A stretch of 40,326 nucleotides of DNA from an uncultured Nocardioidaceae bacterium. GTDB taxonomy: Bacteria > Actinomycetota > Actinomycetes > Propionibacteriales > Nocardioidaceae. A program made the translations under genes and the position numbers. Location of the stretch: NCBI GenBank assembly GCA_902805855.1, contig CADCUJ010000036.1, positions 1 to 40,326 on the forward strand, given 5' to 3'. This document shows, in pieces, positions 1 through 3,362 of the stretch (position 1 is the stretch's first letter; each line of letters begins with the position of its first letter). The notes below the pieces were generated by a model. That model had not been told where the DNA came from, did no database searches, and saw only the letters and a list, made by a program, of their open reading frames with translations.

Positions 1-1620
1 GCCCGTACCGACCCCACCGACGTCGCTCGCGTCGAGGACCGTACCTTCATCTGCTCGGTCGAGGAGAAGGACGCCGGACCCACCAACAACTGGATGGACC
101 CCGGCGAGATGAAGGCCACCATGGCCGACCTCTACAGCGGCTGCATGAGGGGCCGCACCATGTACGTGATCCCCTTCGTGATGGGTCACCTCGAGGCCGA
201 GCGACCGATGTGCGGTGTGGAGATCACCGACTCGGCGTACGTCGTCGTCTCGATGCGGGTGATGGCGCGGATGGGTGCCGACGTGCTGCGCAAGATGGAG
301 GAGATCGACGCCGAGTTCGTCCCCTGCCTGCATTCGGTCGGCATGCCTCTCGAGCCCGGGCAGCGCGACGTTGCCTGGCCCTGTAGCGACACCAAGTACA
401 TCTCGCACTTCCCGGAGGAGCGGGCCATCTGGTCCTACGGGTCCGGGTACGGCGGAAACTCCCTGCTCGGGAAGAAGTGCTACGCGCTCCGGATCGCCAG
501 CGTCGTCGCCCGCGACGACGGCTGGCTCGCCGAGCACATGCTCATCCTCAAGATGACGAGCCCCGAGGGCGTGACCAAGTACGTCGCCGCCGCGTTCCCC
601 AGCGCCTGCGGAAAGACCAACCTCGCCATGCTCACCCCGACGATCCCGGGCTGGAAGGTCGAGACGCTCGGCGACGACATCGCCTGGATGCGGGTCGGCG
701 ACGACGGCCGGCTGTACGCGATCAACCCGGAGTTCGGCTTCTTCGGGGTCGCCCCGGGCACCAACGAGAAGACCAATCCCAACGCGATCCGGACACTGGA
801 GCGCGGAAACTCGGTGTTCACCAACGTCGCGCTCACCGATGACGGTGACGTGTGGTGGGAGGGCATGGAGAACCGTCCCGACCATGCCACGTCCTGGAAG
901 GGTGAGGACTGGACCCCCGAGGACGGCGCGAACGGCGACCTCAGCTCCCACCCGAACAGCCGGTACTGCACACCGATCAAGCAGTGCCCCATCCTGGCCC
1001 CGGAGTACGACGACCCGAACGGTGTGCCGATCGACGCGATCCTGTTCGGGGGCCGGCGGAAGACGACCATCCCGCTCGTCACCGAAGCACGCGACTGGAC
1101 CCATGGCACCTTCATGGGGGCGACCCTGTCCTCTGAGACCACGGCCGCCGCGACCGGGGCGGTCGGCGTGGTGCGCCGGGACCCGATGGCGATGCTGCCG
1201 TTCATCGGCTACAACGCCGGGGACTACCTCAACCACTGGATCACGGTCGGCAAGGTGAACGACGCCGCGAAGCTCCCGAAGATCTACTACGTCAACTGGT
1301 TCCGCCGCGACACCGACGGAGACTTCCTGTGGCCCGGCTTCGGCGAGAACAGCCGCGTCCTGAAGTGGGTCGTCGAGCGCATCGACGGGCAGGCCGCTGC
1401 CGAGGAGACCCCGATCGGCTACGTCCCGACGCCCGACGCCTTGGACACCGAGGGCCTGGAGATGACCGACGAGGAGCTGTCGGCCGCGCTCGCGGTGGAT
1501 GTCGAGGAGTGGCAGGCGGAGATCCCGCAGATCACCGAGTGGTTCGAGAAGTTCGGGCAGAGCCTGCCCACGGTGTTGTGGACCGAGCTCGACGCGCTGA
1601 AGGCTCGTCTGGGCAGCTAG
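1..1620 (+). CDS. pckG: Phosphoenolpyruvate carboxykinase (GTP), 5' truncated by window edge
   Basis: Cytosolic gluconeogenic enzyme converting oxaloacetate + GTP to phosphoenolpyruvate + GDP + CO2. The frame is open from base 1, giving about 539 codons. The family is usually around 600 residues, so roughly the first 70 are outside the window. The diagnostic kinase-1a/P-loop with the active-site cysteine, FPSACGKTN, is encoded at 595-621. Further downstream are [11 protein letters not shown] and the aromatic [12 protein letters not shown] region of the GTP-dependent family; ATP-dependent PckA lacks this combination. It ends with TAG at 1620. The next gene is a separate unit with its own ribosome binding site. 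Identity is secure; only the N-terminus is unseen. Confidence 0.97.
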
Positions 1621-1730: not shown

Positions 1731-2825
1731 TTGGCGAACAGTTTCGGTCCGGAGCAGCGGCGGCTGCTCGACACCGTGGCCGCCGAGCTCTACGGACAGA
1801 TCGCCGACCTCGGCTGGGTCGCCGAGTCCGACCCGCTGCTCAGTGGTGCCGACGAGGCGAAGACCGCGCGCGACCTGCTGGTCGACATGGGCCTGCTCGC
1901 CCACGACCAGGAGCAGGCCCGGTTCTACCCGGTGGACCCTGCCTACGTCCAAGCCCAGGTGGTCGTGCCTCTCGGCACCCGGGGCACCGAGCTGCTCGCG
2001 GAGTCCGCGCGCTGGGCCGACACCTTCTCCTCCCTGGCACGCACCTACCGACAGTCCTCCCAGCTGAAGGGGCAGCCGCTGGTAGAGCTGGACGGCCCGG
2101 CCAGGATCAACACCTTCATCCAGGCCGCGCTCGCGGACTGCCGCGAGGAGCTGTTGACCGCTCAGCCGCACGGACGTCGCCCGCAGAAGGTCCTCAAGGA
2201 GGCCGTCGACCGCGACCTGCACACGCTCGGGCGGGGGATCGAGATGCGCACCTTGTACCAGCACGCCGCCCGGCACAGCCCGGCCACCCGGGAGTACGTC
2301 ACCCAGGTCATCGCCGGCGGGGCCGAGGTGCGCACCCTGGACGAGTTCTTCCGCAGGCTCATCGTGATCGACCGTCGCCTGGCCATCGTGCCGAGTGAGA
2401 ACGGCGACCAGCGGGCCCTGGCCATCTACGAGAAGTCGCTGGTCGCCTACCTCGTCGACATCTTCGAGCGCTCCTGGGAGCGAGGCCTCCCGTTCACCGA
2501 CAACGAGTCGCAGACGCACCGCGACATCGCCGCCGACACCAGGCGGATGTCGATCCGGATGCTGGTCGAGGGTCACAGTGACCCCGCCAGCGCCAAGCGC
2601 CTCGGGGTCAGCACCCGCACCTACGCCGCGTACATCGCCGCCCTCAAGGAGGAGTACGGCGTGGACACCCGCTTCCAGCTCGGCTACGCGATGGGCCGAG
2701 AGCGGCCGGCGGGCGAGAATGCGGGACAGAGCCCCGGAGAAGGCGCCGGAGAAAGTCCCGAGGGCGCCGGGGCGTCCCAGCGTCCCGCGACCGGGAACGG
2801 CCGACCGGCCACGGCCGAAGGCTGA
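1731..2825 (+). CDS. Two-HTH transcriptional regulator (TrmB-like N-terminus, LuxR-like C-terminus)
   Basis: 364-aa cytoplasmic DNA-binding regulator. Residues about 5-70 look like a winged helix of the TrmB type. Residues about 120-250 form a middle domain of the kind often called phospholipase D-like in actinobacterial LuxR-family regulators, including TLYQHAARHSPATREYV and a DRRLAIVP stretch. Residues about 272-325 are a LuxR/sigma-like HTH (SAKRLGVSTRTYAAYIAAL). Residues 326-364 are a low-complexity Gly/Pro/Glu/Ala tail. The start is TTG at 1731, preceded by GGGGAGG 5-6 nt upstream; CATACT at 1690-1695 could be the -10. It converges on the secreted-peptide gene at 3031-3195, which makes the peptide a candidate ligand or target. 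The middle domain could bind a small ligand or peptide; this is inference. The DNA target is unknown. Confidence 0.85.
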   Translation: MANSFGPEQRRLLDTVAAELYGQIADLGWVAESDPLLSGADEAKTARDLLVDMGLLAHDQEQARFYPVDPAYVQAQVVVPLGTRGTELLAESARWADTFSSLARTYRQSSQLKGQPLVELDGPARINTFIQAALADCREELLTAQPHGRRPQKVLKEAVDRDLHTLGRGIEMRTLYQHAARHSPATREYVTQVIAGGAEVRTLDEFFRRLIVIDRRLAIVPSENGDQRALAIYEKSLVAYLVDIFERSWERGLPFTDNESQTHRDIAADTRRMSIRMLVEGHSDPASAKRLGVSTRTYAAYIAALKEEYGVDTRFQLGYAMGRERPAGENAGQSPGEGAGESPEGAGASQRPATGNGRPATAEG

Positions 2826-2852
2826 GCCCGGCACAGGCTGCCCCGAATTGAT

Positions 2853-2891
2853 GCGAGGGCAGTCATGTCTGGGGAAACATGCTGCCCTCGC
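2853..2891. terminator. Long hairpin between convergent regulator and peptide genes
   Basis: Perfect 10-bp arms GCGAGGGCAG (2853-2862) and CTGCCCTCGC (2882-2891) enclose a second 5-bp stem CATGT/ACATG around an 8-nt loop, with a single bulged T. It lies 27 nt after the regulator stop and about 140 nt past the peptide stop on the other strand. A bidirectional terminator is most likely. There is no T-tract, which is common in high-GC actinobacteria. A protein-binding palindrome is the alternative. Confidence 0.65.
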
Positions 2892-3030
2892 AGGGGATGA
2901 GACGGGCCGGGGGATGGCACTGAGGTCGAACGGCCGGGGGGAGGCGTTCGCCTCGTCTCACGCTATCTAGTTGGTTGTCTTACCGGACTCAGCTGGCCGC
3001 TTGCCTCTGGGCTGCCGGCCGGCTGGCTGG

Positions 3031-3195
3031 TCAGCCCCAGCCGGTGTCCTTCTTCTGGGCCGAGGGGCTGTCGTCACGGACCTTGCCCCAGCCGGTGTCC
3101 CTGGCCTCGGCAGGAGCCGACAGTGACCCGAGCACCATCACGGTCGCCGCGATCGTCCCGGCGAATGCCTTGACTGCAAATCGTGTCTTGTTCAT
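3031..3195 (-). CDS. Small secreted peptide precursor with two DTGWG repeats
   Basis: 54-aa precursor. Residues 1-31 form a Sec signal peptide: the MNKTRF basic n-region, a hydrophobic core ending VMVLGSLSA, and an AEA signal-peptidase I site at 29-31. The predicted mature peptide is 23 residues: Arg, then DTGWG (33-37), a charged spacer KVRDDSPSAQKK, then DTGWG again at the very C-terminus (50-54). The two copies are encoded by an exact 16-nt direct repeat. The ATG at 3195 follows AGAGGGG at a good distance, which decides this start; an in-frame upstream extension to 3303 has no ribosome binding site. It converges on the two-HTH regulator gene. I do not recognise a named family. A signalling role is inferred from size, export signal, repeats and neighbour. 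Confidence 0.8.
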   Translation of the reverse strand: MNKTRFAVKAFAGTIAATVMVLGSLSAPAEARDTGWGKVRDDSPSAQKKDTGWG

Positions 3196-3325
3196 CAGTA
3201 CCCCTCTTTGGTGATCACTGGTGGCCCCACTTGGCTTGATTCCCTGGTTGGCTGGCGGGCGAACCTCGGATCGCCTGTCACCAGTGTCAGCCATGAGGCA
3301 CATGACTTACCAGCACATTGCACCC

Positions 3326-3362
3326 TCACGATTTTGCACTGCACTTTCCTGCAAAATCGTGA
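3326..3362. promoter_or_regulatory. 13+13 bp inverted repeat, operator-like
   Basis: TCACGATTTTGCA (3326-3338) and TGCAAAATCGTGA (3350-3362) are perfect inverted copies separated by 11 nt. The arms are AT-rich in a very GC-rich genome. The repeat sits 131-167 nt upstream of the peptide ATG. Half-site centres are 24 bp apart, a little over two helical turns, which suits a dimeric regulator. The neighbouring two-HTH protein is the obvious candidate; that pairing is inference. Confidence 0.6.

Follow-up and report, generated by a model that had tools for sequence, protein, structure and literature searches.

Peptide signalling through cytoplasmic receptors has been described as a feature of Firmicutes (PMC10075063), where the RRNPP systems, such as NprR/NprX and PlcR/PapR, are defined by a TPR receptor of 250–500 aa and an adjacent propeptide gene (PMC10075063). 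Signalling in actinobacteria is described as mostly based on small molecules made by enzymes (PMC4748050), among them the gamma-butyrolactones of Streptomyces; the receptors of these compounds are of the ArpA type. In a further family of regulators, represented by TrmB and TrmBL2 of Archaea, an N-terminal winged helix is followed by a PLD-like domain.

The locus described here belongs to an uncultured Nocardioidaceae bacterium with a genome of 2.64 Mb (G000) and lies in a window of 40,326 nucleotides, which is the whole stretch of DNA that was analysed. It encodes a regulator and, convergently, a small peptide with an export signal recognized by a heuristic. The conserved pairing of the two genes is shown, as are the operator before the peptide gene, the regulon marked by this operator and the tracking of the regulator's presence by the operator box. 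A first-pass annotation, made from the sequence alone, had proposed that these parts form a peptide-sensing circuit. The proposal is supported, and its sensing step remains an inference, as there is neither a binding experiment nor a complex prediction and expression is inferred.

Regulator, peptide gene and operator box

Table 1. Coordinates, strand and basis of the features discussed (window positions unless a locus is named).
Feature	Position	Strand	Basis
Regulator gene	1731..2825	+	ORF of 364 aa, TTG start; orthologue alignment; fold/profile matches
N-terminal winged helix, residues ~7-67	1749..1931	+	Secondary structure of model; TrmBL2 match, residues 21-253
PLD-like domain, TrmB-type, residues ~114-257	2070..2501	+	VIA; ligand role proposed, inferred
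C-terminal LuxR-type HTH, residues ~258-324	2502..2702	+	DosR/DevR match E=0.006; sub-threshold HTH_23
Peptide gene, 54 aa, convergent with regulator	3031..3195	-	ORF and RBS; partner kept at 98/105 orthologous loci
Sec-type signal peptide, residues 1-31, AEA (29-31) before predicted cut	3103..3195	-	Sequence, hydropathy heuristic
Predicted mature peptide, 23 aa	3034..3102	-	Sequence; DxxW kept across family
DTGWG, residues 33-37	3085-3099	-	
DTGWG, residues 50-54	3034-3048	-	
Ribosome binding site of peptide gene, AAAGAGGGG, purine-rich	3201..3209	-	Sequence; precedes ATG
Operator box TGCAGGAAAGTGCAGTGCA, TGCA-N6-TGCA-N-TGCA	3335..3353	-	Conserved before family peptide genes; G000 match
Palindrome with perfect 13-bp arms, contains box	3326..3362	.	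Shuffle test
Small RNA (examples; others found)	L298:1289-1438; L301:1583-1734; L308:1795-1951	-; +; -	

The regulator comprises a TrmB-like winged helix, a long helix, a PLD-like domain and a LuxR-type HTH, and its orthologues share the position of the TTG start in the alignment. Pfam returned only sub-threshold matches (HTH_23 and PLDc_2), and an NCBIfam search found no family for either the regulator or the peptide. A structure model built with 29 relatives (mean pLDDT 83) had archaeal TrmBL2 as its top Foldseek match (E=3e-14), with TrmB and PLD-family proteins also among the matches. VIA related the PLD-like domain to TrmBL2 (Z 17.2) and to the sugar-binding part of TrmB (2f5t; Z 15.9); its list was dominated by PLD-domain matches and carries little information on the other domains. 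In a profile search, which relies only on sequence, residues 21–253 matched TrmBL2 (E=1.6e-6) and residues 266–317 matched, weakly, the LuxR-type HTH of DosR/DevR (E=0.006). The TrmBL2 and DosR matches therefore identify the regulator as TrmB-like in its winged helix and PLD-like domain and as carrying an additional C-terminal HTH of the LuxR/DosR type, a prediction that rests on the model and, for the HTH, on a weak match. The domain order that characterizes the TrmB family is present, and this fold places the regulator in a ligand-sensing family; a ligand of its own is inferred by analogy. The first-pass architecture of an N-terminal winged helix, a central domain and a C-terminal LuxR-like HTH thus held and has been refined, and the central domain, suggested as a possible ligand domain, proved to have a PLD-like fold of TrmB type, its ligand role remaining inferred. 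The gene upstream of the regulator, at window 94–1620, is phosphoenolpyruvate carboxykinase-like, and traces of such a gene are found beside several orthologues, so the regulator locus is syntenic.

The precursor encoded by the peptide gene consists of a signal part, MNKTRFAVKAFAGTIAATVMVLGSLSAPAEA, and a predicted mature part, RDTGWGKVRDDSPSAQKKDTGWG; a basic N-terminus is followed by a hydrophobic stretch, AEA and the 23-residue mature part, in which DTGWG occurs twice. The signal peptide was called by eye and with a hydropathy heuristic, without a dedicated predictor, and on this basis, together with the AxA found across the family, the small Sec-exported propeptide typical of RRNPP systems is present. 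The earlier claims regarding the positions of the regulator, peptide gene and palindrome, the peptide gene's own ribosome binding site, the AEA site, the length of the mature part and its two DTGWG copies (one of them C-terminal) all held, the Sec signal only by eye and heuristic.

The palindrome noted upstream of the peptide gene as operator-like was confirmed in its location, and shuffling the 400-nt sequence 300 times gave arms of at most 10 bp, versus the 13 observed. The part conserved across the family is the box core TGCAGGAAAGTGCAGTGCA, for which a regulon can now be described, and not the long arms. TGCA words cluster at -140 to -70 before Nocardioidaceae peptide genes; 75 of the 98 genes have an exact box somewhere from -190 to -40, compared with 0/98 in a control region (-400 to -250). 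The upstream region of the regulator itself shows no enrichment of the box, and 14 of the 98 peptide genes lack one even within 3 mismatches. In a Nocardioides clade with peptides of the DTGWGW/DSGWGW type the box has apparently been lost from the peptide promoters (L083, L084, L086, L088, L095); several genomes of this clade still keep exact boxes before the small RNA described below. Palindromes of the form GGCCCC...GGGGCC, at about -160 to -200 of peptide genes, were discounted, probably being ends of the upstream tRNA gene.

Conservation of the regulator–peptide pair

The orthologues of the regulator (45–64% identity) form a distinct set, and among the 107 distinct members from Nocardioidaceae 105 had 450 nt or more of 3' flank and were assessed. 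At 98 of these loci a short ORF of 39–93 aa (median 48) with a Sec signal and a D-x-x-W motif lies convergently just 3' of the regulator, at a median distance of 148 nt beyond its stop. The motif appears under relaxed criteria at two further loci (L118 and L127), and in G242 and G281 the peptide and box are found ~2 kb from the regulator; depending on the criteria, the pair is kept at 98 to 102 of the 105 loci. No peptide was found within ~6 kb in three regulator-positive genomes. An orthologue occurs in nearly every sampled genome of genus g7, which we take to be Nocardioides by its named members, and is missing from all sampled genomes of the sister genus g20, which we take to be possibly Aeromicrobium.

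Apart from the signal and the tetrad, the precursors show no conservation. Among the 98 of Nocardioidaceae, the tetrad begins 0–2 residues past AxA in 80; its second position is T in 63, S in 23 and I, Y, F or L in 12, its third is S in 44, G in 28, T in 23, A in 2 and Q in 1, and the W is directly followed by glycine in 72. Between two and four copies are present in 19 precursors. As a secreted ORF with a ribosome binding site follows only 1.8–2.7% of random positions in loci of this kind, the pair occurs much more often than chance would give.

Searching the whole class recovered the regulator family in Streptomyces as well (g74, which we take to be this genus by comparison with the named loci L050–L053), often as clusters of tandem paralogues. 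Here the peptide gene is divergent from the regulator, both in four relatives with 37–38% identity and in most cluster leaders, and the precursors hold up to 10 tetrads each (DSTW 5–10 times, DSGW 5–7, DPGW 3–5, DPVW four and DTGW three times per precursor, with DIAW and DVGW repeats also occurring). Tetrads are usually identical inside one precursor and different between species, which fits specific signals, as in pheromone precursors. An operator-like site, CAGGAACATGATGC, occurs once per genome in 26 of 28 Streptomyces genomes and is followed by a D-x-x-W ORF at 25 of the 26 loci. This site resembles the Nocardioides half-site TGCAGGAACATG; the full Nocardioides box was rejected as the Streptomyces operator, since the two are not the same site. 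Occurrence of the pair in Nocardioidaceae and, with another gene order, in Streptomyces indicates that the link survives rearrangement. Conserved linkage of this regulator family with D-x-x-W peptides in relatives, the check attached to the original proposal, was thus obtained (98–102/105 Nocardioidaceae and 25/26 Streptomyces loci).

At the Streptomyces loci L233–L246 several tandem regulator paralogues have one common D-x-x-W peptide gene. In another family of the same order as Nocardioidaceae, exported ORFs beside distant relatives of the regulator carry other repeats, namely GGFQW twice (L152:1159-1347, minus strand) and NSLG 12 times (L032:1014-1343, plus strand), and it is possible that the pairing principle is wider than D-x-x-W.

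Box-linked genes and a structured small RNA

The box was found at 92 sites in 40 regulator-positive Nocardioides genomes, and in 20 regulator-free genomes at 5 sites, all of a different, TGCAACGAGTTGCA type. Co-occurrence strongly suggests that the regulator binds the box, an inference made without binding data. A TGCAACGAGTTGCA element with a third TGCA recurs in regulator-free g20 genomes (L165, L303, L304, L305 and L306, at ~1501–1519), where some other regulator probably binds it.

Outside the peptide locus, 13 of 39 sites are followed at 40–320 nt by the start of a secreted ORF that has a ribosome binding site, compared with 1.8% of random positions and 0/9 sites in orthologue-free genomes; in an earlier set, 22 of 41 sites had a secreted ORF, with the peptide gene accounting for ten of them, versus 2.7% at random. 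Twenty-four box-linked proteins, picked for their position and mostly for a signal sequence, were scanned, and 18 match extracellular peptidase families: thermolysin M4 (8), immune inhibitor A M6 (3), M43 (3), M10/M12-like (2), subtilase S8 (1) and M36 (1), the last counted although just under the cut-off. Other box-linked proteins include M23 and NlpC/P60 wall hydrolases and a GmrSD_C-type nuclease. The box-linked secreted protein of L227 resembled a sedolisin on inspection but matched nothing in Pfam and was left uncounted. The window's own genome contains five exact box matches, one of which is its own peptide promoter; another, at L213:951-969, separates the divergently placed gene of a small secreted protein, whose family is unknown, from that of a LysM-NlpC/P60 protein, and no exoprotease target was identified in this genome.

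The second class of box targets is non-coding and consists of a conserved RNA of ~150 nt that follows the box in Nocardioides; it has an inner hairpin and a long outer stem, and many copies also carry a T-run. In 13 of its 29 consensus pairs both sides change with pairing kept, and no credible match was found in Rfam. Under stricter filters, a covariance model finds the RNA in 15/15 regulator-positive Nocardioides genomes tested, and finds none in the regulator-negative G031, in 14 g20 genomes or in other regulator-positive genera, the window's genome included. The RNAs found by structure have a box with 0–3 mismatches from perfect (chance median 5), mostly at a fixed distance. In all likelihood this is a new, structured small RNA; its role as a box-controlled target is inferred from the position of the box.

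Proposed circuit, alternatives and known systems

The reading we favour, with moderate confidence, is a two-gene peptide-signal circuit that controls exoproteases in the manner of NprR/NprX with an unrelated receptor; binding, processing, import and expression are without direct evidence. The small gene would make a precursor exported via Sec, from which signal peptidase, and probably extracellular proteases too, would release one or more peptides with Asp-x-x-Trp at their centre. After uptake into the cell, these would be bound by the regulator through its PLD-like (TrmB-type) domain, and the DNA-binding ends of the regulator would act on the TGCA-N6-TGCA-N-TGCA boxes of the peptide gene itself (feedback), of several secreted peptidases and, in Nocardioides, also of the structured small RNA. 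Exoprotease output would thereby be set by population density or by the local proteolytic state. It is inferred that the regulator binds the box and that the peptide is processed, re-imported and serves as its ligand; the direction of control, activating or repressing, is likewise a matter of inference.

The known ligands of TrmB are sugars, which counts against a peptide ligand. Regulators whose peptides carry D[TS][GS]W have D at residue 162, and those whose peptides have T at position 3 or a hydrophobic residue at position 2 have E or A there; this residue was chosen post hoc, about three of three independent pairs agree and the sign test is not significant, so that residue–tetrad co-variation under tree control is suggestive, not significant. 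A bolder reading, for which the arguments seem to us evenly balanced, would be that of a ribosomal pheromone family new to Actinobacteria (species-specific, with repeated Asp-x-x-Trp) that has its own receptor class (TrmB/PLD-like plus LuxR-type HTH) and controls exoproteases and a new small RNA. Such a family would include Streptomyces and perhaps also, with further tetrads like GFQW, Propionibacteriaceae.

Short ORFs are common in G+C-rich DNA, and an unrelated or non-coding one might stand beside the regulator by chance; this explanation is all but excluded, as the pair occurs at at least 93% of loci versus secreted ORFs at 1.8–2.7% of random positions, and we count it as refuted by the pairing in Nocardioidaceae and in Streptomyces. 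A more serious, though unlikely, alternative is that the peptide is an output: the regulator would sense a sugar or metabolite and switch on a secretome package (proteases, nuclease, wall hydrolases and DxxW peptide), the peptide working outside the cell, for instance as a protease inhibitor or a wall-binding or antagonistic peptide. The operator common to the peptide and the secreted peptidases speaks for it, and relatives of TrmB do sense sugars. Against it, the peptide adjoins the regulator and not the proteases, in two bacterial orders with different gene orientation; the Streptomyces operator has a single site per genome, which precedes the peptide gene alone, and no secretome package is apparent there; and the mature part is often barely more than one tetrad, which is small for an effector.

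Less likely still is self-sensing, in which the exported peptide would gauge the cell's own secretion or extracellular proteolysis through the return of fragments made by exoproteases, a cell-autonomous process without a population signal. Exoproteases are the main protein-coding targets and the Streptomyces repeats are split by linkers that proteases could cut, both in its favour, but species-specific tetrads are more natural for a signal that needs distinction; the present data do not strictly separate the two readings.

If the peptide-signal circuit is correct, peptide signalling occurs in a bacterial group not known for it. The pair is present in almost every Nocardioides and also in Streptomyces, and is tied by a common operator to secreted proteases and the small RNA; short synthetic peptides would allow the question to be tested directly, and a means of influencing exoenzyme output would be gained in a group of industrial importance. 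No publication on the regulator–DxxW peptide pair was found in the open-licence literature searched, which is weak evidence, as preprints and most subscription papers fell outside the search.

Among known systems, RRNPP (PMC10075063) shares with this locus a Sec-exported precursor encoded next to a cytoplasmic DNA-binding regulator of 250–500 aa, a definition met here in size and adjacency (364 aa; propeptide gene adjacent at 98/105 loci). In both, the peptide gene is under its own operator and secreted proteases are among the targets, as is known for NprR. The differences are that the receptor here is TrmB/PLD-like with a LuxR-type HTH and not a TPR protein, that the system belongs to Actinobacteria, has a repeated D-x-x-W tetrad and a small RNA among its targets, and that its ligand binding is inferred. 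Since model and profile show no TPR receptor, the system is not a member of RRNPP despite its proposed NprR/NprX-like working. The TrmB family shares the winged helix and PLD-like domain, whereas the regulator has an extra C-terminal LuxR-type HTH and an exported-peptide partner, and no sugar-metabolism context was seen. The gamma-butyrolactone systems of Streptomyces (PMC4748050) likewise act through a cytoplasmic regulator that governs secondary or secreted functions, and the genera overlap; their signal is made by enzymes, whereas here it would be a ribosomal, exported peptide.
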